DNA of 64,000 bases from Mesorhizobium sp. Root552. GTDB lineage: Bacteria > Pseudomonadota > Alphaproteobacteria > Rhizobiales > Rhizobiaceae. Positions 22,294 through 33,679 of the stretch are shown here, in pieces. The position numbers and the translations under genes were made by a program. How positions within the stretch are numbered: position 1 is the first letter of the stretch; each line of letters starts with the position of its first letter. The stretch spans positions 20,056-84,055 of the forward strand of contig NZ_LMFV01000007.1 in NCBI RefSeq assembly GCF_001427285.1, written 5' to 3'. The notes under the pieces were generated by a model. The model had not been told where the DNA came from. It made no database searches and worked only from the letters and a program-made list of their open reading frames with translations.

Positions 22294-23292
<999 letters not shown>

Positions 23293-23302
23293 GGCGTTTT
23301 TC

Positions 23303-24364
23303 CTATAGCTTGACGGCTTGGCCGGTGCGCACGCTCTCGTCGGCAGCGAGGCAGACGGCGAGCGATTTCACGGCATCGTCCATGTGACGGGTCAGATCGA
23401 GGTTTTCGCGGATCGCCTTCAACACGAAGGCCTGTTCCAGATCGCACAGGTCCTGGTGACCCGGTTCGCCCTGCATCGACAGCATCTCGTCAGGGCGGGC
23501 GAATTTGCCATTCGCGCCAGTTCTGGCGCTATGAAGGCGTATGGTCGATGTCTTGGTGTGGGTATCGATGTCGTCCGACTTCGCGCCCTCGGCCATGACG
23601 ATGGACACGCAGCCATTGGGCGAGATTACATCCTTCACGAAGAAGGCCGTTTCCGAAATCATCGGTCCCCAGCCGGCCTCGTACCAGCCGACCGAGCCGT
23701 CATCGAACAAAACCTGCAGGTGGCCGTAATTGTACATGGCCGGCGCGATCTCGTCGGTCAGGCGCACGCCCATGCCGCGCACCTCGACCGGTCTTGCGTC
23801 GGTGATCTGCAGCATGACGTCGAGATAGTGCACGCCGCAATCGACGATCGGCGAGGTCGTCTGCATCAGTTGCTTGTGCGTTTCCCAGGTCGGGCCGGAC
23901 GATTGCTGGTTGAGGTTCATGCGGAAAACGTAAGGCCCGCCAAGCAGCCTGGCCTCTGCGATCAGCCGCATCCATGACGGGTGATGGCGCAGGATGTAGC
24001 CGATGACCAGTTTCCGGCCGTTGGCCTTGGCGGCATCGACCACGCGGCGAGCATCGGCCACGGTCGTTGCCAACGGCTTTTCCACGAACACATGGCAACC
24101 GGCCTCGAATGCCTTCACCGCATAGTCGGCATGGCTGTCCGAATAGGTCGCGATGGAAGCCAGATCCGGCTTTTCCTCGCGCAAGGCGTCGTCGAACGAA
24201 CGCCTTATCTCATGGCCCGCCAATCCGCCCGGCAACGGCACGTCGGAGCGGTTGACGAGCGCCGCAATCTCGAAGCCGGGGTTGTTGTGATAGGCGAGCG
24301 CGTGGCTGCGGCCCATATTGCCGAGCCCGGCAACCACGACCCTGACCGGTTGTTCTTTACTCAC
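23303..24364 (-). CDS. Gfo/Idh/MocA family NAD(P)-dependent oxidoreductase
   Basis: 353 residues from GTG 24364; the frame runs further upstream into the permease gene, but GTG here overlaps its TGA stop by four bases, the usual coupling. Rossmann motif [12 protein letters not shown], the catalytic [13 protein letters not shown], and a long alpha/beta domain with [13 protein letters not shown] and GYILRHHP. Family members oxidise or reduce sugar hydroxyls. Its place between transporter genes suggests it processes the imported sugar or a co-transported one, for example a 3-keto-sugar step; this is inference. Confidence 0.85.
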
Positions 24365-25200
24365 TTGACTGCTCCAGACGTGATGCCGCGGATCAGTTGC
24401 CGCGAGAAGATGAGATAGAGGACCAGCACCGGCAGGATGGCCAGCGACAGCGCCGCCAGCACGGCATTCCAGTTGGTGACGTATTGGCCGATGAACATCT
24501 GCGCGCCGAGCGTGATGGTCTTCGTCGCTTCCGAAGGCGCGAGGATCAGCGGGAACCACAAATCGTTCCAGATCGGGATCATGGTGAAGACGGCAACGGT
24601 TGCCATGGCGGGCCTGACCAGCGGCAGCACCAGCCGGAAGAAGATCGTGTATTCGGACAGCCCGTCGATGCGTCCGGCATTCTTCAGGTCATCAGAAACC
24701 GTGCTCATGAACTCGGCCAGGATGAAGATGGCGAGCGGCAGGCCCTGCGCGGTGTAGACGAGGACGAGCGCGGTGAGCGTATTGACCAACCCGCTTGCCA
24801 CCATCAACTGCAGGATGGCGACAGTGCCCAGCCGGATCGGGATCATGATGCCGAGCGCCAGATAAAGCCCCATCAGCTTGTTGCCGCGGAACCGGTATTC
24901 CGAGAGCGCGAACGCCGCCATCGCGCCGAACAGCAGCACGAAAAACAGCGAGGAGACGGTGACGATGAAGCTGTTCTGGAAATATTGCAGGAAATCGCCC
25001 TGTGCGAGCACCGTCCGGTAGCCGACAAGATCGAACGTCTCGGCAGTCGGCGGCGTCATCGGCGCATTGAAGATGGCGTTGCGCGCCTTGAACGAGTTGA
25101 TGACGATGATGAACACCGGAAACAGCGCGATGATCGTGTAGGCGATCAGGATCGCATGCGCGGCCGCCGAGCGGGAAAACGAGTTGGTTGCTCTGCTCAT
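24361..25200 (-). CDS. Sugar ABC transporter permease, MalG/UgpE-like
   Basis: 279 residues, six predicted helices starting HAILIAYTIIALFPVFIIVI. The EAA loop is NAGRIDGLSEYTIFFRLVLP and the end ISRQ-like [15 protein letters not shown]. It is the second membrane subunit of the sugar importer. A gap of 280 bases separates it from the other permease gene, unusual within an operon; that gap holds an inverted repeat. Confidence 0.9.
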   Translation of the reverse strand: MSRATNSFSRSAAAHAILIAYTIIALFPVFIIVINSFKARNAIFNAPMTPPTAETFDLVGYRTVLAQGDFLQYFQNSFIVTVSSLFFVLLFGAMAAFALSEYRFRGNKLMGLYLALGIMIPIRLGTVAILQLMVASGLVNTLTALVLVYTAQGLPLAIFILAEFMSTVSDDLKNAGRIDGLSEYTIFFRLVLPLVRPAMATVAVFTMIPIWNDLWFPLILAPSEATKTITLGAQMFIGQYVTNWNAVLAALSLAILPVLVLYLIFSRQLIRGITSGAVK

Positions 25201-25480: not shown

Positions 25481-26410
25481 CTAAAACTGATACCGACGCA
25501 GGCGCGTCTGGATGAGGAAGAGATAGATGCAGACGCCCACCAGGATGATGAGGAACATCATGGTGGCGATGGCAGCCCCCATGTTGGGATCGCCCACCTG
25601 CAACTGGAAGCCGAAGAAGGCGCGATAGAGGAAAGTGCCGAGGATATCGGTCGAGTAGTTCGGCCCGGCAAGCGCGCCCTGCGCCGTGTAGATCAGGTCG
25701 AAAGCGTTGAAATTGCCGACAAATGTCAGGATCGAGATGATGCCGATGGCCGGCAGGATCAACGGCAGCTTGATCTTCCAGAACTGCGCCATGCCGGTGA
25801 CGCCATCGCATTCGGCAGCCTCGATCACCTCGTCGGGGATCGACAGCATGGCGGCATAGATCAGCATCATCGGGATGCCGATGAACTGCCAGACCGAGAT
25901 CAGGCTGAGCGCCGTCAGCGCATACTCTTCCTTGCCGAGCCACGGTGTGAACAGGCTTTTCAGGCCGACCAGATCAAGCAGGTTGGGCGCCACGCCCCAA
26001 AGCGGCGACAGGATCAGCTTCCAGGCGAAGCCGACGATGACGAAGGACAAGATGGTCGGGATGAAGATCGCCGTGCGGTAGAAGGCCGAGAAGCGCAGCC
26101 TGGGGCTCGATAGAAGTGCCGCAAGGACGACGCCGACCGGATTTTGAACCAGCATATGGATGATGAAGAACCAGACGTTGTTCCTCAACGCATTCCAGAA
26201 ATTGGTCGACCAGTTCGGGTCGCCGAACAGGGTGCGGAAATTGTCGAGGCCGACGAAGACCTGGCTTTGCGAGACATTGCGAAACAGCGCGAGTTGCAGC
26301 GTGCCGAACAGCGGCATGATCATGATGGCGGTGTAGACCAGCACCGCCGGCGCCAGGAAGATGGCGATATGCCAGCGGAATGGTCGCTTCGTCGCGGATG
26401 TTGCAGTCAT
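25481..26410 (-). CDS. Sugar ABC transporter permease, MalF/UgpA-like
   Basis: 309 residues, about six helices, starting WHIAIFLAPAVLVYTAIMI. The EAA loop reads EAAECDGVTGMAQFWKIKLP and the C-terminal helix is ATMMFLIILVGVCIYLFLIQ. Typical MalF/UgpA/MsmF family. It forms the translocation channel with the MalG-like subunit. It is preceded by a repeat (26427-26530) and an mRNA hairpin that separate it from the binding-protein gene, so it may be expressed less than the binding protein. Confidence 0.9.
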   Translation of the reverse strand: MTATSATKRPFRWHIAIFLAPAVLVYTAIMIMPLFGTLQLALFRNVSQSQVFVGLDNFRTLFGDPNWSTNFWNALRNNVWFFIIHMLVQNPVGVVLAALLSSPRLRFSAFYRTAIFIPTILSFVIVGFAWKLILSPLWGVAPNLLDLVGLKSLFTPWLGKEEYALTALSLISVWQFIGIPMMLIYAAMLSIPDEVIEAAECDGVTGMAQFWKIKLPLILPAIGIISILTFVGNFNAFDLIYTAQGALAGPNYSTDILGTFLYRAFFGFQLQVGDPNMGAAIATMMFLIILVGVCIYLFLIQTRLRRYQF

Positions 26411-26706: not shown

Positions 26707-27966
26707 TTACTTCGCCGGCTTGTACCAGCTGTCGAGGCCGTCCTGCAGCTTCTTGGCGGCAACTTCCGGCGTATCCGTGCCGTTGATGACGTTGGCCGAT
26801 TCAACCCAGGTCTCGTTCTCGAGGTTCGGCGTGCCGCGCGACAGGATCTGGTAGGTCGAGCGGATCGTCGACTTGCACTTGTCGCGCCAGGATACGAATT
26901 CCTGGGCAAGCGGATCGGCCATCTTCACCGGTGTTGAGTTCAGGCTGAAGAAGCCCGGCAGCGCGTTGGCGTAGATTTCCGCGAACTCAGGCGACGCGAC
27001 CCAGGACAGGAAGGTCTTGGCTGCATCCGGGTTCTTCGATGCGGCGTTGAGGCCGATGCCGATATCGGTGTGGTCGGAAATGTAGCAGGTGTCGCCTGCC
27101 TTCCTGACCGGCGGCGGGAACGCACCCATCTTGAACTGTGCCTGGGTGTTGAAGACCGAGATTTCCCACGAACCGGCCGGATAGATCGCCGCGCGGCCCA
27201 GCGTGAACAGGTTCTGGCTGTCCGGATAGGTCTGGGCTTCGAAACCGTCACCAAGATAAGGCTTCCACTTGGCAAGCGTCGCATAGGGCTCGACCCACTG
27301 CGCGTCGGTCAGCTTCTGCTCGCCCTTGAGCAGCGCAAGGCGGCCTTCCTCGCCCTGCCAGTAGTTCGGGCCGATATTCTGGTAGCCCATGGTGGCTGCT
27401 TCCCACAGGTCCTTGGTGCCCATCGCCATCGGGATATAGGTGCCGTCGGCCTTGATCTTGTCGAGGGCGGCAAAGAACTCTTCCTCGGTCGCCGGCGGCG
27501 TGATGCCCAGCTTGTCGAAGGCATCCTTGTTGTAGATGAAGCCATGGATGACGGATGCCATCGGCACGCAGAAGGTGGCCTTGCCATCGTCGGTGGTCCA
27601 GGCCGACTTGGCGACGTCTGAGAAGTTCTCCATGCCGGCCAGGCTGGTAAGATCGGCGAGCTTGCCCTTGGTGTAGAGATCGAGCGAGGCGTCGAACGGC
27701 CGGCAGGTGATGATGTCGCCGGCAGAGCCTGCATCGAGCTTGGCGTTCAGGGCAGCGTTGTATTCGGTTGGCGCGGATGGCGAGAACACCACCTTGATGC
27801 CGGGGTTCTTGGCTTCGAAGGCCGGGATCAACTTGTCCTGCCAGATGGCGAGGTCGTCGTTGCGCCAGCTTTCAATGGTCAGCGTCGCGTCTTGTGCGAA
27901 TGCGGCCCCGGCGGAGCAGAGAACGCTCGATCCAAGAAGAATTGCCGTCAAGAGTTTCGTATTCAT
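26707..27966 (-). CDS. Sugar ABC transporter substrate-binding protein (extracellular, family 1)
   Basis: 419 residues. The signal peptide runs LLTAILLGSSVLCSAGAAFA, then DATLTIESWRNDDLAIWQ, the usual opening of sugar-binding proteins. Further on are the hinge-region patterns (GSWEISVFNTQAQFKMGAFP, SWVASPEFAEIYANALPG). It binds the sugar in the periplasm and delivers it to the two permeases. Located directly after the murQ-like gene, so an N-acetylglucosamine, MurNAc or chito-oligosaccharide ligand is the most economical guess. Confidence 0.88.
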   Translation of the reverse strand: MNTKLLTAILLGSSVLCSAGAAFAQDATLTIESWRNDDLAIWQDKLIPAFEAKNPGIKVVFSPSAPTEYNAALNAKLDAGSAGDIITCRPFDASLDLYTKGKLADLTSLAGMENFSDVAKSAWTTDDGKATFCVPMASVIHGFIYNKDAFDKLGITPPATEEEFFAALDKIKADGTYIPMAMGTKDLWEAATMGYQNIGPNYWQGEEGRLALLKGEQKLTDAQWVEPYATLAKWKPYLGDGFEAQTYPDSQNLFTLGRAAIYPAGSWEISVFNTQAQFKMGAFPPPVRKAGDTCYISDHTDIGIGLNAASKNPDAAKTFLSWVASPEFAEIYANALPGFFSLNSTPVKMADPLAQEFVSWRDKCKSTIRSTYQILSRGTPNLENETWVESANVINGTDTPEVAAKKLQDGLDSWYKPAK

Positions 27967-27990: not shown

Positions 27991-28929
27991 TCAGGTTCGG
28001 TTTTTGATGAGATCGGAGGTCGCCTGACCCTTGCTCCCCTCAATTGCGGAAAGGGCGGGCCGCAATTTCTGGCCCGTCCCGTCCAATAGTCTGCGTGCCG
28101 CTTCCGCGCTGGCGGCACCCGCCGCAAGCAGGATTGCCGTCTTCACCTGTCCGCCGCAGCGCTCCAGAAGCACCTCTGCCTCGTCCTTGCCGCGGCCGGT
28201 AATCGCCGTGACGATGCGGCTGGCGCGGTCGCGCAGCTTCTTGTTGTCGGCGGTCAGGTTGATCATGTAGCCGTCATGGACGTGGCCGAGATGTATGGCA
28301 GCCAGCGTCGACATCATGTTGAGCGCGATCTTCTGCGCCGTGCCGGCGCCCATGCGGGTCGAGCCGGCAATCACTTCCGGCGGCGTTTCGATGAGGACGG
28401 CAACGTCGGCCTTGTCGAACAAGGGCGCGTTCCCGTTGTTGGCGATCGCGATCGTCGACGCGCCCTTAGCCTTCGCGACCTCGAGCGCACGCACCGCATA
28501 GGGCGTCGATCCGCTTGCAGAGATGGCAATAACGCAATCCGCAGAACCGACGCCGGCATCTGCGACGGCTTGCTCAGCTTCGCTGGTGTCGTCTTCGGGT
28601 CCGCCCGCAAGATTATGGAGTGCCTCATCGCCGCCCGCGATCAGGATCGCGATGCGGTCGCGTGCAATGCCGAAAGTTCCGGGAAGTTCCAGTGCATCCG
28701 CGAGCGCCATCAAGCCCGAACTGCCCGCGGCGGCGTAGATCAACCGGCCGCCACCTTCCAACCTGTCGGCCATCAGGCGCGCGGCGACGGCAATGTTGGG
28801 AATGGCCTTCTTTACCGCGGCAGCCGCTTCGATCTGGGCATCGGCCAGGGCAGAAAGCACGACATGCGGCGGCTGGATATCCAGCCCCTCGGCACTCCGG
28901 TGCAGCGCTTCCGTGCGCATTTCCGCCAT
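27991..28929 (-). CDS. murQ: N-acetylmuramic acid 6-phosphate etherase-like protein
   Basis: 312 residues from ATG 28929, which follows GGAGGAAAAGGG; the frame extends further without a good start. It is a SIS-domain protein: GRLIYAAAGSSGLMALADAL with the catalytic-type glutamate of LELPGTFG, AGGPEDDTSEAEQ, ISASGSTPYAVRALEVAKAKG, and GSTRMGAGTAQKIALNMMST are the MurQ landmarks. MurQ removes lactate from MurNAc-6-phosphate to give GlcNAc-6-phosphate. First gene of the leftward operon with a sugar ABC importer, and opposite nagK/nagA-type genes. Some residues differ from enterobacterial MurQ (AAAGSSGLM for GAGTSGR-type), so activity on MurNAc-6-P is probable, not certain. Confidence 0.85.
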   Translation of the reverse strand: MAEMRTEALHRSAEGLDIQPPHVVLSALADAQIEAAAAVKKAIPNIAVAARLMADRLEGGGRLIYAAAGSSGLMALADALELPGTFGIARDRIAILIAGGDEALHNLAGGPEDDTSEAEQAVADAGVGSADCVIAISASGSTPYAVRALEVAKAKGASTIAIANNGNAPLFDKADVAVLIETPPEVIAGSTRMGAGTAQKIALNMMSTLAAIHLGHVHDGYMINLTADNKKLRDRASRIVTAITGRGKDEAEVLLERCGGQVKTAILLAAGAASAEAARRLLDGTGQKLRPALSAIEGSKGQATSDLIKNRT

Positions 28930-28950
28930 CCCTTTTCCTCCAATGACAAA

Positions 28951-28978
28951 ACAATACCAAAAAAATACCACTTGTCCA
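28951..28978 (-). promoter_or_regulatory. murQ operon promoter with overlapping operator
   Basis: On the minus strand TGGACA (28978-28973) and TATTGT (28956-28951) are 16 bases apart. The spacer and -10 contain GGTATTTTTTTGGTATT, matching the word before the nagK-type gene in the opposite direction. A repressor bound here would block the promoter. Confidence 0.55.
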
Positions 28979-29079
28979 CACGCATTAACGATTTCTCTCA
29001 CCTAAAACGTGCAGCAGGGCAGAAAACCAATATTTTTCAATAAAATACGCCTTAATCTTTTCGAAACAGAAATTAAGAC

Positions 29080-29107
29080 TTGGCTATTGGTATTTTATTG
29101 GTATCAT
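29080..29107 (+). promoter_or_regulatory. nagK-type operon promoter with overlapping operator
   Basis: TTGGCT (29080-29085) and TATCAT (29102-29107) are 16 bases apart, and TTGGTATTTTATTGGTATC (29087-29105) fills the spacer and -10. The core GGTATTTTnTTGGTAT is shared with the divergent murQ promoter. It is the likely binding site of the GntR/UTRA regulator encoded two genes downstream. Confidence 0.6.
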
Positions 29108-29128
29108 CCAGCCAGTGGAGGCATCATC

Positions 29129-30013
29129 GTGGATTTCGTGCTCGGCATTGACGGCGGCGGCACCAGCTGCAGGGCAGCCCTGGCGACGACGGATGGCGTG
29201 GTCATCGGTCGCGCCAAGAGCGGCGCAGCCAATATCCGCACCGACCTGACGGGCGCGCGCACGCATATTGTCGATGCGGCCAGGCTGGCCTTCCTCGATG
29301 CCGGCAAAGATGCCGACCTCATTTCCAAAACACCCGCCGTGCTCGGGCTGGCAGGCGCGAATGTCGGCACCTATCGCCAGCAATTGCAGGCAATCCTGCC
29401 GTTCAGGCAAAGCCGCGTCGAGACAGACGCGGAAATTGCGCTCGAAGGCGCGATCGGCGACAGTGATGGGGCTATCGCCGTGCTTGGAACCGGCTCGGCC
29501 TATATGGCGCGCAAGGCCGGCATATCGCGTGCCATCGGCGGCTGGGGCTTCCAGGTCGGCGACCAGGGCAGCGGCGCGCGCATCGGGCGCGATCTCCTGG
29601 AGCAGGCCCTTCTGGCCCATGACGGCATTCGCGAGGCTTCGCCCCTGACGCGCGAGATGCTCGCCGTTTTTCGGGGCGATCCGCAAGACGTCGTCGAGTT
29701 CACGACCAATGCCAAGCCCGGCGACTTCGGCGGCTTCGCGCCGAAGGTGTTCGAGCACGCCGCCAAGGGCGACGTCGTCGCCATCTGGATCGTCGACAAG
29801 GCAGTGGCCGATGTCGAAGCCTCGCTCGCGGTCCTCGGCCTTGCGGCCGGCGACGCGCTGTGCCTGCTCGGCGGATTGGCCGGCCTTTATGCGCCCCGGC
29901 TGTCGGCCAGGTATCAGGCACTGCTGCGGCCACCGCGCGACGATGCGCTGGGCGGCGCCGTGCGCATGGCTGCCCGCCTGTTCGCATCCTCGACGGAGGC
30001 GGCGAATGGCTGA
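29129..30013 (+). CDS. BadF/BcrA-family sugar kinase (N-acetylglucosamine/MurNAc-type)
   Basis: 294 residues from GTG 29129, with GTGGAGG eight bases upstream. Phosphate loop FVLGIDGGGTSCRAAL, second loop IAVLGTGSAYMARK and adenosine region GGLAGLYAPRLS belong to the BadF/BadG/BcrA/NAGK ATPase family, which includes eukaryotic-type N-acetylglucosamine and glucosamine kinases. It would phosphorylate the sugar imported by the divergent ABC system to the 6-phosphate. It shares an 8-base overlap (ATGGCTGA) with the regulator gene. GlcNAc, GlcN or MurNAc are all possible substrates. Confidence 0.85.
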   Translation: MDFVLGIDGGGTSCRAALATTDGVVIGRAKSGAANIRTDLTGARTHIVDAARLAFLDAGKDADLISKTPAVLGLAGANVGTYRQQLQAILPFRQSRVETDAEIALEGAIGDSDGAIAVLGTGSAYMARKAGISRAIGGWGFQVGDQGSGARIGRDLLEQALLAHDGIREASPLTREMLAVFRGDPQDVVEFTTNAKPGDFGGFAPKVFEHAAKGDVVAIWIVDKAVADVEASLAVLGLAAGDALCLLGGLAGLYAPRLSARYQALLRPPRDDALGGAVRMAARLFASSTEAANG

Positions 30014-30794
30014 CGTCTCCGACCAGATTTTCGGCGGGCTGAAGCAGGCAGGCCAGAGCGGCCTGCCGCTCTACCTCCAGCTTCGCAAGAGCATCGAAGA
30101 CGCGGTCAAGACCGGGCTGATCGGCCCCGGAGACGCCCTGCCGTCCGAACGCGATATCGCCACCAAGGCCGACATTTCGCGCGTCACCGTGCGCAAGGCG
30201 GTGCAGGATCTGGTCAAGGGCGGCCTTCTCGTCCAGCGCCACGGTTCGGGTACCTTCGTCGCGCCGCGCGTCGAGCGCGTCGAGCAATCGCTGTCGCGGC
30301 TGACCTCCTTTACCGAAGACATGGCGCGCCGGGGCATGGCCGTGCGTTCGGCGTGGCTCGACCGTGGCGTGTTCACGCCCTCGCCGGAAGAGATCATGGC
30401 GCTTGGCCTGTCGTCGAAGGAACTGGTTTCGCGCATAGCGCGCCTGCGCATCGCCGACGATACGCCGCTTGCCATCGAGCGGGCCTCGCTGTCGTCCTCG
30501 ATCCTGCCCGATCCTTCGGCAATCGAGTTCTCGCTCTACGCCACGCTTGGAAAAACCGGCAACCGGCCGGTCAGGGCGGTGCAGCGGATTTCGGCGGCCA
30601 ACCTCAACGAAACAGATGCAAGGCTGCTGGCCGTGCAACCCGGCGTGGCGGGCCTGCACATCGAGCGCATCTCCTATCTGGCAAGCGGCAAGGTGGTGGA
30701 ATTTACCCGCTCGATCTATCGCGGCGATGCCTATGACTTTGTCGCGGAGTTGCGGCTAAGCGGGCCCGGCGAAGAGACAGGAGACCGTTCGTGA
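30006..30794 (+). CDS. GntR/HutC-family (UTRA) regulator, NagR/NagQ-like
   Basis: 262 residues from ATG 30006. Residues about 20-85 form the GntR winged helix (PLYLQLRKSIEDAVKTG, ALPSERDIATKADISRVTVR, LVQRHGSGTFV). The rest is a UTRA ligand domain with SRIARLRIADDTPLAIERAS and LHIERISYLASGKVVEFTRS. UTRA regulators of this type commonly sense GlcN-6-P or GlcNAc-6-P. It lies in the operon of a sugar kinase, a deaminase and a deacetylase, and the paired operators at 28951-29107 are its natural candidates. Confidence 0.88.
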   Translation: MADVSDQIFGGLKQAGQSGLPLYLQLRKSIEDAVKTGLIGPGDALPSERDIATKADISRVTVRKAVQDLVKGGLLVQRHGSGTFVAPRVERVEQSLSRLTSFTEDMARRGMAVRSAWLDRGVFTPSPEEIMALGLSSKELVSRIARLRIADDTPLAIERASLSSSILPDPSAIEFSLYATLGKTGNRPVRAVQRISAANLNETDARLLAVQPGVAGLHIERISYLASGKVVEFTRSIYRGDAYDFVAELRLSGPGEETGDRS

Positions 30795-31822
30795 CGGCAA
30801 CCAAAACGCATATGCGCCGCGAGATCGAGGAGATTCCGCAGGCGGTCGCGCGCCTGCTCGACGGCTCGGCACCCGCGTTCATCGAGGCAGGGCGCGGCAT
30901 ACGCGAACTTGACCCCAACTTCATCGTTACCGTCGCGCGCGGCTCGTCCGACCACGCCGCGACCTTCCTGAAATACGCCATCGAGCTCACCGCCGGTCTG
31001 GCCGTGGCTTCCATAGGCCCCTCGGTGGCCTCCATCTACGGCGCCAAGCTAAGGCTGAACGGTTCTGCCTGCGTCGCCGTCTCGCAATCCGGCAAAAGCC
31101 CCGACATCGTCGCCATGGCCGAAAGCGCAAAACAGCGTGGGTCGCTGACAGTTGCGCTGACCAACACAGCGGACTCGCCGCTGGCACGCACCTGCACCTA
31201 TTCCATCGATATCCTCGCCGGGCCGGAGCGCAGCGTCGCCGCCACCAAGACCTTCGTGAACTCGGCGGTTGCAGGCCTTGCGCTGATGGCGCACTGCACG
31301 AATGACGAGGGCCTGCTTGTCGCCTTGCGGGAATTGCCCGCCCATCTCGAAAAGGCAATCGCCTGCGACTGGATGGCGCTTGCCGGAGCGCTTGAAGGCC
31401 AGCGGTCTTTGTTCATCCTTGGCAGGGGGCCGTCCTTCGCCATCGCCAGCGAAGCGGCGCTTAAATTCAAGGAAACCTGCGCCATGCACGCGGAAGCCTA
31501 CAGCACCGCCGAGGTGATGCACGGCCCGCTTGCACTGGTCGGGCCGAAATTCCCGGTCCTGTCGCTCGCCTCGCGCGATGCCGCCGAAAAATCCGTCGCC
31601 GACACCGCAGATGCTCTGGCGGCAAAGGAAGCGTCGGCCTTCGCCACAACCACCCTTGTGAAGCGGGCCCAACAGCTTCCGCACGTCGCCACCGGCCATC
31701 CGTTGACCGAGCCTCTGGCGCTGATCGTTTCCTTCTACGCCTTCGTCGAGGCTTTCGCCCGCCATCGCGGCCTCAACCCCGATGCGCCGCCCAATCTGCA
31801 CAAGGTGACCGAAACCGTATGA
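30791..31822 (+). CDS. SIS-domain glucosamine-6-phosphate deaminase (NagB-II/GlmS C-domain-like)
   Basis: 343 residues from GTG 30791, overlapping the regulator's stop by four bases. Two SIS domains: IVTVARGSSDHAATFLKYAI, SQSGKSPDIVAMAESAKQRG, AATKTFVNSAVAG in the first; FILGRGPSFAIASEAALKFK, EAYSTAEVMHGPLALV in the second. It matches the isomerase half of GlmS with no glutamine amidotransferase domain, as in NagB-II and AgaS proteins. In this context it should convert glucosamine-6-phosphate to fructose-6-phosphate and ammonia. Confidence 0.85.
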   Translation: MTATKTHMRREIEEIPQAVARLLDGSAPAFIEAGRGIRELDPNFIVTVARGSSDHAATFLKYAIELTAGLAVASIGPSVASIYGAKLRLNGSACVAVSQSGKSPDIVAMAESAKQRGSLTVALTNTADSPLARTCTYSIDILAGPERSVAATKTFVNSAVAGLALMAHCTNDEGLLVALRELPAHLEKAIACDWMALAGALEGQRSLFILGRGPSFAIASEAALKFKETCAMHAEAYSTAEVMHGPLALVGPKFPVLSLASRDAAEKSVADTADALAAKEASAFATTTLVKRAQQLPHVATGHPLTEPLALIVSFYAFVEAFARHRGLNPDAPPNLHKVTETV

Positions 31823-32982
31823 ACGGCCGCTTCGCACTTTCAGCTACGAGAATCTTCGACGGCGACGCCTGGCATGAAGATGCAGCACTGGTCGTCGCAA
31901 ACGGCATCATCGAAGCGATCGTCCCGCGAAGCTCGTTGCCCGCCGATATGAGCGTGGTCGAGGACAAACGCGCGATCCTCGCGCCCGGCTTCATCGACCT
32001 CCAGGTCAATGGCGGCGGCGGCGTGATGCTGAACGACCATCCCGACGTCGCCTCGATCAGGACGATCTGCGCGGCGCATGCGCCGTTCGGAACAACCGCG
32101 CTGTTGCCGACCCTCATCACCGATACGCCCGAAATCACCGCCGCCGCCGCCGCGGCTGGCAGGGCCGCCGCAGAAGAAAAGATACCCGGTTTCCTCGGCC
32201 TGCATCTGGAAGGCCCGCATTTGTCGCTGGCGCGCAAGGGCGCACACGACCCCAAGCTCATCCGCCCGATGACGGAAAAGGATCAGTCCGCCCTGATTGC
32301 CGCCAAGGATGGTCTGCCGGTGCTTCTCACCACCATTGCGCCTGAATCGGTGACGGCGGATCAGGTCGGCAAGCTGGCACAAGCCGGCATCGTCGTCAGC
32401 CTCGGCCATTCCGATGCCGGCTTCGCTACGGCGCGCGCCTATGCACATGCAGGCGCTTCGGTCGTCACCCACCTTTTCAACGCGATGAGCCAGATCGGCA
32501 ACCGCGAGCCGGGCCTTGCCGGTGCCGCCATCGATACCGGCAGCCTGTCCGCCGGCCTGATTGCCGACGGCATCCACGTCGACCCGGCCACCATCGGCAT
32601 CGCGCTTCGCGCCAAAACCGGGCCGCGCCACATTTTCCTCGTCACCGATGCGATGGCGACCATCGGCACCGACATGACGTCATTCACGCTCAACGGCCGC
32701 ACCATCTACCGCAAGGATGGCAGCCTGCGCCTTGCCGACGGAACGCTTGCCGGCGCCGATCTCGACATGATCTCGGCAGTCCGCTTCATGCACGAGGTCA
32801 TCGGGCTTGAACTGGCAGAGGCGCTTCGCATGGCATCGACCTACCCTGCCGAAGCTGTCGAGCAATCACACCGCATCGGCCGCCTTACCAAGGGCCAGGC
32901 AGCCAATATCGTCGCGCTTTCGGAAAGACTGGCCGTCGAAAGCGTATGGATCAACGGCAGCAAGGTTTTCGCCAAGGCCTGA
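31819..32982 (+). CDS. nagA: N-acetylglucosamine-6-phosphate deacetylase
   Basis: 387 residues, overlapping the deaminase gene by four bases (ATGA). Amidohydrolase motifs of NagA: APGFIDLQVNGGGGVMLND, FLGLHLEGPHLSLARKGAHD with the metal glutamate, VVSLGHSDAGF, VTHLFNAMSQI, FLVTDAMATIG with the catalytic aspartate, and a long C-terminal segment ending NGSKVFAKA. It removes acetate from GlcNAc-6-P to give glucosamine-6-P for the NagB-II-type enzyme upstream. Last gene of the rightward operon. Confidence 0.95.
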   Translation: MNGRFALSATRIFDGDAWHEDAALVVANGIIEAIVPRSSLPADMSVVEDKRAILAPGFIDLQVNGGGGVMLNDHPDVASIRTICAAHAPFGTTALLPTLITDTPEITAAAAAAGRAAAEEKIPGFLGLHLEGPHLSLARKGAHDPKLIRPMTEKDQSALIAAKDGLPVLLTTIAPESVTADQVGKLAQAGIVVSLGHSDAGFATARAYAHAGASVVTHLFNAMSQIGNREPGLAGAAIDTGSLSAGLIADGIHVDPATIGIALRAKTGPRHIFLVTDAMATIGTDMTSFTLNGRTIYRKDGSLRLADGTLAGADLDMISAVRFMHEVIGLELAEALRMASTYPAEAVEQSHRIGRLTKGQAANIVALSERLAVESVWINGSKVFAKA

Positions 32983-33001: not shown

Positions 33002-33679
33002 TTAGCGGGCTGCGCCGTCAGCCGCGGAGCGGATCGCGGCAATGTTCTTGCGATAGGCTTCGAAGCCGTCACCCTTGAACACGGCAGCACCGGCCACCAG
33101 AACGTCAGCACCGGCAGCGGTCACCAGCGGCGCGGTCTCCGCCGTCACGCCGCCGTCGATCTCGATATGGATCGGCCTGCCTCCGATCATCGCCTTCACG
33201 CGCTTCACCTTATCGATCATCGCCGGGATGAAGGCCTGTCCACCGAAACCCGGATTGACCGTCATGATCAGGATCAGGTCGAGCCGGTCGAGCACATATT
33301 CAATCGCGCTTTCCGGCGTGGCCGGATTGAGCGAAACGCCCGCCCTCTTGCCAAGATTGCGGATGGTCTGCAGCGAGCGGTCGAGGTGGGGGCCAGCTTC
33401 CGCATGGACGGTGATGCCATCGCAACCGGCTTCCGCAAAGGCGGCCAGATAGGGATCGACCGGTGCAATCATCAGGTGGCAGTCGAAATAGGCCTTGGTG
33501 CGGTTGCGGATCGCCTTGATGACCGGCGGGCCGAACGTGATATTGGGAACGAGGTGGCCATCCATCACGTCGAGGTGCACCCAGTCAGCGCCGGCGGCAA
33601 CCACGGCCTCGACCTCGTCGCCCAGTTTGGAAAAGTCGGACGACAGCACCGACGGTGCGATCAGGGTTTTTCCGCTCAT
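33002..33679 (-). CDS. rpe: Ribulose-phosphate 3-epimerase
   Basis: 225 residues, (beta/alpha)8 barrel. Motifs: [36 protein letters not shown] with metal ligands, [26 protein letters not shown] and EIDGGV. It interconverts ribulose-5-phosphate and xylulose-5-phosphate in the pentose phosphate pathway. It is convergent with nagA and separate from it. Confidence 0.95.

Follow-up and report, generated by a model that had tools for sequence, protein, structure and literature searches.

The window, by which we mean the whole stretch of 64,000 nucleotides analyzed here, contains two divergent operons separated by a gap of 199 bases (28930-29128), which runs from the start of murQ (28929, minus strand) to the start of a gene for a BadF-type kinase (29129, plus strand). 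The genes of the two operons are:

22294-23292, minus strand: UgpC/MalK-type ABC ATPase (PRK11650, 441.9 bits, cut-off 432)
23303-24415, minus strand: Gfo/Idh/MocA oxidoreductase (PF01408; start codon provisional)
24361-25200, minus strand: ABC importer permease (PF00528)
25481-26410, minus strand: ABC importer permease (PF00528)
26707-27966, minus strand: ABC importer substrate-binding protein (PF01547/PF13416)
27991-28929, minus strand: murQ, MurNAc-6-P etherase (NCBIfam PRK05441, 336.9 bits, cut-off 168; scanned from 28938)
29129-30013, plus strand: BadF-type kinase, most like the GlcNAc kinase NagK (PF01869; NF046058, 175 bits, below the cut-off of 370)
30006-30794, plus strand: GntR/UTRA (HutC subfamily) regulator, NagQ-type, the probable operator ligand (PF00392, 58 bits; PF07702, 120 bits)
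30791-31822, plus strand: SIS-domain GlcN-6-P deaminase, NagB-II-like (NF046059, 295 bits, below the cut-off of 430)
31819-32982, plus strand: nagA, GlcNAc-6-P deacetylase (TIGR00221, 307 bits, cut-off 225.65)

The nagA end of the operon is faced by an open reading frame (33002-33679, minus strand) that, from the appearance of its sequence, we take to resemble a ribulose-phosphate 3-epimerase. Compared with solved structures, the kinase is closer to 1zc6 (GlcNAc kinase, E 7.6e-25) than to 8zo3 (E 7e-17), which is described as an "N-acetylmuramic acid/N-acetylglucosamine kinase". Family searches gave no match to PTS EIIC anywhere in the genome and a match to AnmK outside the locus. AnmK makes MurNAc-6-P, so MurQ need not depend on the BadF-type kinase, and, judging from gene content, recycling of the cell wall can supply its substrate with no need for a MurNAc kinase. 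A preliminary description of this DNA had called the combination of murQ, ABC importer and BadF-type kinase unlike the textbook PTS-based systems. The lack of a PTS EIIC match agrees with this, but the contrast was overstated, as the relatives of the kinase include a solved MurNAc/GlcNAc kinase (8zo3) and the type of operator has been published.

Two exact copies of the word GGTATTTTnTTGGTAT lie in inverted orientation in the gap (28954-28969, minus strand; 29089-29104, plus strand), one over each of the divergent promoters, as had been noticed at the outset. A third match with three mismatches (28943-28958, minus strand) overlaps the first of these copies. Shuffles of the window produced 0.21 matches at up to three mismatches. 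Across the 4.62 Mb genome, 30 matches were found at this threshold (the two exact copies in the gap and 28 with exactly three mismatches) versus 16 for a reversed control pattern, and no match with fewer than three mismatches occurred besides the two in the gap. Both words belong to 18-mers of the form TTGGTAT-N4-TTGGTAT, from which the murQ-side copy differs by one base. The coordinates originally assigned to the operators (28951-28978 and 29080-29107) are in fact the promoter spans, and the corrected features are as follows:

28951-28978, minus strand: predicted promoter of the murQ-ABC operon, TGGACA-16-TATTGT, with TG before the -10; -35 side and -10 conserved in relatives
28954-28971, minus strand: murQ-side operator predicted from sequence, GTGGTAT-TTTT-TTGGTAT, direct repeat of period 11
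28970-29088, no strand: spacer of 119 bases between the two 16-base words, unconserved in sequence at its center and kept in length in near relatives
29080-29107, plus strand: predicted promoter of the nagK-gntR operon, TTGGCT-16-TATCAT, with TG before the -10; conserved in relatives
29087-29104, plus strand: nagK/gntR-side operator predicted from sequence, TTGGTAT-TTTA-TTGGTAT, direct repeat of period 11

Two promoter-like sites were found in the gap, compared to 0.4 (sd 0.8) in shuffles. The equal 16-base spacers and equal operator positions reported for them hold: the first base of the -35 hexamer precedes the start of each word by 9 bases, which makes the placement identical on both sides, and the second half-site of each operator provides the TGnTAT of an extended -10. 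The tandem site had no match at up to two mismatches in the neighborhoods of the other two UTRA genes of the genome (three UTRA matches in total). At two mismatches, the whole genome gave 11 matches versus 9 for the control; therefore, weak further tandem sites are indistinguishable from chance. In the window, as in five relatives' loci, the murQ-side arm carries a further TGGTAT-like or TTGTCAT copy 11 bases on. A third half-site at this position was considered and dropped, its match being at chance over 145 dereplicated loci (means of 1.68 and 1.83 of 7). Inverted symmetry of the gap continues beyond the operators to the ribosome-binding sites in 34-base arms (28937-28970 and 29088-29121) that are 76% complementary and both end in a GGAGG stretch, which may stem from duplication of a promoter or from a constraint common to both sides.

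Absence of the word from orthologous gaps had been named beforehand as an outcome that would refute the reading. Of 78 related loci whose gap is uncut (80 loci minus two cut at contig ends), 74 had the pair at up to three mismatches over both words, 39 of them exactly on both sides, and no such pair occurred elsewhere in the 958,820 bases of these loci. Conservation of both operators extends to the arms of dereplicated loci, 70 of nagK type and 75 GntR-first. The left word persists in seven loci that lack a murQ match and have the binding protein as their nearest matched gene (L025, L044, L051, L150, L151, L160 and L161), and the right word persists in Devosia-type loci, where no nagK match is present and the regulator comes first. 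The tandem repeat was also sought in 40 further loci, 33 of which came from twelve families other than those of the window and of Devosia (L290 and L296 overlap earlier loci; L271 and L272 share one genome). At a stricter threshold, 44 matches had a period of 11 bases, one had a period of 13 and none had periods of 8-10, 12, 14 or 15, and mononucleotide shuffles gave 0.0 tandem-repeat matches. With a looser listing threshold, for which period 11 alone was run, the repeat was found in 35 of the 40 loci, with an N4 linker that varies widely between families; the other five (L269, L272, L294, L295 and L299) had no such repeat despite the presence of a regulator relative.

Among 397 genomes of the order, word matches on both strands (up to one mismatch each) occurred together with the regulator in 51; 25 had the words only, 71 the regulator only and 250 neither (Fisher p 2e-13, from a table compiled by hand and uncorrected for relatedness). 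The name of this order, and that of the family Devosiaceae below, are those that we take to apply. Single words without an adjoining regulator match were found at L141, L178, L179 and L183 (exact in L183), and over the range searched, 221 of the family's 297 genomes did not show the two-site pattern. The murQ-side operator of one locus (L026) has one base fewer in its T run and a period of 10 instead of 11, representing either a natural linker mutant or a homopolymer sequencing error. Two same-strand tandem-repeat matches were observed upstream of the regulator at L291 (27 bases apart) and L302 (11 bases apart and overlapping).

The presence of a GntR/UTRA regulator in the rightward operon was borne out by matches of the 30006-30794 product to PF00392 and PF07702, and the best record found by regulator was a Mesorhizobium MAG (L001) with 98% identity. 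Its closest solved relatives by sequence are YvoA/NagR of B. subtilis and DasR of Streptomyces, with which it probably has GlcNAc control in common. The source paper for NagQ is reportedly that of Yang et al. 2006. E. coli NanR, also of the GntR family, belongs to the FadR subfamily. As described in the survey texts, NagQ is a HutC protein with direct repeats of TGGTATT (PMC4494728); it occurs in alpha- and betaproteobacteria as well as some gammaproteobacteria, and has 81 tandem-repeat sites in 31 genomes (PMC5343134). Most HutC proteins are described as reading palindromes, with direct repeats unusual among them, and the 2016 survey gives nagA, nagB and a PTS transporter as the cores of the three GlcNAc regulons. 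Going by these descriptions, the window shares with NagQ regulons the GntR DNA-binding and UTRA effector domains of its regulator, the tandem TGGTATT repeats and the nagA/nagB-type targets, the latter by operon position only; nagA scores above its cut-off and the NagB-II-like protein below its own. It differs in that an ABC importer and murQ replace the PTS transporter, no PTS EIIC match being found in the genome, and in that two operators lie over two divergent promoters. Since we regard the PTS core as a trait of the surveyed regulons rather than of the regulator, the protein is labeled "NagQ-type" and not "NagQ".

Other known systems are more distant in operator type or regulator. In contrast to the mostly palindromic operators that the surveys give for HutC proteins such as NagR and DasR, each operator here is a direct repeat. 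E. coli NanR dimers bind direct repeats of GGTATA cooperatively, but NanR, in the account given for it, is a sialic acid regulator with three repeats and a 32-residue N-terminal extension (PMC8012715). E. coli NagC acts on nagE-nagB, likewise a GlcNAc divergon with two operators, where looping is called necessary (PMC5401889); it is described as a ROK-family repressor (PMC5343134) and works with a PTS transporter, whereas looping in the window is a candidate only. The kind of operator is thus already known, because direct TGGTATT repeats are the published NagQ site type, and the combination of murQ and an ABC importer without PTS EIIC is a variant. The divergon may already stand in the site tables behind the two surveys (PMC4494728, PMC5343134). 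A literature search on etherase, rhizobia and GntR together found no related paper, as judged from the listing. With operator and regulator type known, what is possibly new is the spacing between the operators.

Operator anatomy, promoter overlap, conservation, the lack of equally good sites elsewhere and gene content can be read from the DNA directly. On this basis, the regulator probably binds the word and one repressor probably controls both operons, and the match of the half-site to the NagQ repeat, as published in the surveys, supports this assignment. In the proposed mechanism, the NagQ-type repressor would bind, at each divergent promoter, the pair of TTGGTAT half-sites set in tandem one helical turn from each other, and cover the spacer and extended -10 of both promoters. 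Because the bound protein would lie over these elements, RNA polymerase would be excluded from the murQ-ABC importer operon as well as from the nagK-gntR-nagB-nagA operon, until an amino-sugar phosphate made by the pathway (presumably GlcNAc-6-P or GlcN-6-P) released the repressor. A candidate further step is contact between the two bound complexes across a loop of ~135 bases. We consider it highly probable that a single NagQ-type repressor acting through tandem half-sites shuts both operons and is released by an amino-sugar phosphate. The word could instead be merely a strong promoter element shared by both sides (an extended -10 with an A/T spacer) and no operator, given that it overlaps both promoters and contains TGnTAT. 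This is very improbable, as 35 of the 40 further loci keep two half-sites with an 11-base period despite a variable N4 linker, and the word occurs with fewer than three mismatches nowhere else in the genome.

To describe the arrangement of the two operators, D was defined as the distance from word start to word start, which is 135 in the window. From 251 loci, five were dropped without a regulator match (among them L162, cut by its contig) and three more that lacked a pair (L180, and L001 and L022, both truncated by contig ends); removal of identical gaps reduced 243 loci to 208, and removal of five with at least five mismatches left 203 for the tree, sister-pair and spacing analyses. Loci L081-L093 were left out. 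Over the 208 loci with distinct gaps, D ranged from 93 to 179 (44 at 134, 62 at 135), and distant families extend it down to 85, with spacings of 85, 100-102, 122-124, 146 and 177 in families other than that of the window. For kinase-type loci chosen by regulator protein alone, mostly Mesorhizobium, D was 128-140 in 51 of 53 (21 of 23 after dereplication), and for loci of other families chosen by a single word it was so in 1 of 5. Pair-bearing Devosiaceae genomes (93 of 136 searched; 85, 7 and 1 in three gap ranges covering D 85-177) had peaks at 134-137 (43) and 123-126 (22), with 7 at 127-132 and 21 elsewhere. One Devosiaceae clade without a murQ match (L261, L262, L079, L239 and L241, four of which reach just 400 bases on the murQ side) has spacings of 106 and 116-118, which lie outside the main register but again differ by roughly one turn. 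It is unlikely that slippage of the 11-base repeat caused one-turn changes, because the flanks hold their register to the words in both GntR-first spacing classes: on the left, CAMTT was kept in 18 of 18 and 34 of 34 loci, and on the right, TTGG in 15 of 18 and 29 of 34. The longer left-hand CAMTTGT was kept in only 10 of 18 and 31 of 34. An IHF-like motif at the center of the gap was inspected by eye, and as information there is near zero no claim is made on it.

The fairly constant operator distance in near relatives hints that bound repressors may touch. Repressor at both operators would then form a short loop whose length is held in helical-turn steps, convergent with E. coli NagC on nagE-nagB, a reading that we hold to be less likely than not. 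Alternatively, each site would act alone on its own promoter, and the spacing would reflect only descent, chance and small indels, or else promoter elements further upstream; to this we give an even chance. Sequence divergence speaks for the loop and against independent sites: in 22 dereplicated loci the gap center (word-based positions 40-95) is near substitution saturation (31% identity, 26% expected; 91-94% in the words) while D stays at 135. So do the changes in D inferred by parsimony on a regulator tree of 203 loci, of which 12.1 were of 9-12 bases, 4.4 of 5-8 and 2.1 of 13-16, with the 9-12 class exceeding the 5-8 class in 15 of 15 bootstrap trees. This excess was missing from control distances between the words and three gene anchors (n 87, 172 and 114), for which steps of 9-12 numbered 4.0, 1.0 and 0, those of 5-8 7.9, 3.2 and 1.3, and those of 13-16 5.9, 0 and 0 (pooled, 5.0 versus 18.3 in the other two classes). 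The corresponding Fisher test (p 0.008) is a guide only, because it uses rounded mean counts and overlapping taxon sets. The narrow range of D in protein-chosen kinase-type loci and the two Devosiaceae peaks are also consistent with looping. On the Devosiaceae tree one-turn contractions arose five times, but about eleven changes led from the main class to other spacings, and sister pairs differed by 9-12 bases in 6 of 101 cases, by 5-8 in 5 and by 13-16 in 1.

Tests of helical phase were weak or failed, which favors sites that act independently. Of 26 spacings of independent origin, compiled by hand from the tree, 12 were in phase (p 0.05 to 0.14 depending on the assumed period; Rayleigh p about 0.9), and adding four distant values gave 13 or 14 of 30 (p 0.03 to 0.10). 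Spacing concentration in the 93 Devosiaceae genomes was nearly independent of the period (R 0.45-0.50 for 9.5 to 11.5), and distinct D values lacked a period, with R of 0.12-0.15 both across all loci and within the Devosia type, although R reached 0.65 in the nagK type (n=13). Out-of-phase spacings occur (105-106, 116-119, 128-131, 139-140 and 162), and several clades contain ones that are off by roughly half a turn. For the nagK-type set, a random walk given as many small steps as parsimony counts is not rejected (p 0.13), although it is rejected at two and three times that number; bounded drift of the spacing, which fell short of significance at the parsimony count of steps, was set aside. 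Of the 114 nagK-type loci, 55 were picked by a pattern allowing only D of 111-141. Short nagK-type leaders are kept in length as well (toK10 median 67, IQR 67-68), spacing differs in other families, and the GntR survey, in its account of such arrangements, classes many double-site divergons as independent (PMC4494728). In addition, promoter-promoter geometry would leave an equal trace, and since operators and promoters overlap it could be what a phase effect reflects. Considering the weak phase tests, the off-phase spacings and the possible role of promoter geometry, we rate looping as well short of probable. Only tentatively, then, do we suggest that a GntR/HutC repressor of tandem repeats shuts two divergent promoters via a loop, its length selected in helical steps across several families, and that this arrangement was invented independently of the NagC loop.

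Overall, the locus brings murQ, and with it cell-wall sugar recycling, together with the import of amino sugars under a single probable switch; the genome has no PTS EIIC match and carries an AnmK gene elsewhere. It gives a precise operator, TTGGTAT-N4-TTGGTAT, to probe, and its relatives supply a natural series of spacings from 85 to 177 bases with which to ask whether a GntR repressor that reads direct repeats loops DNA.
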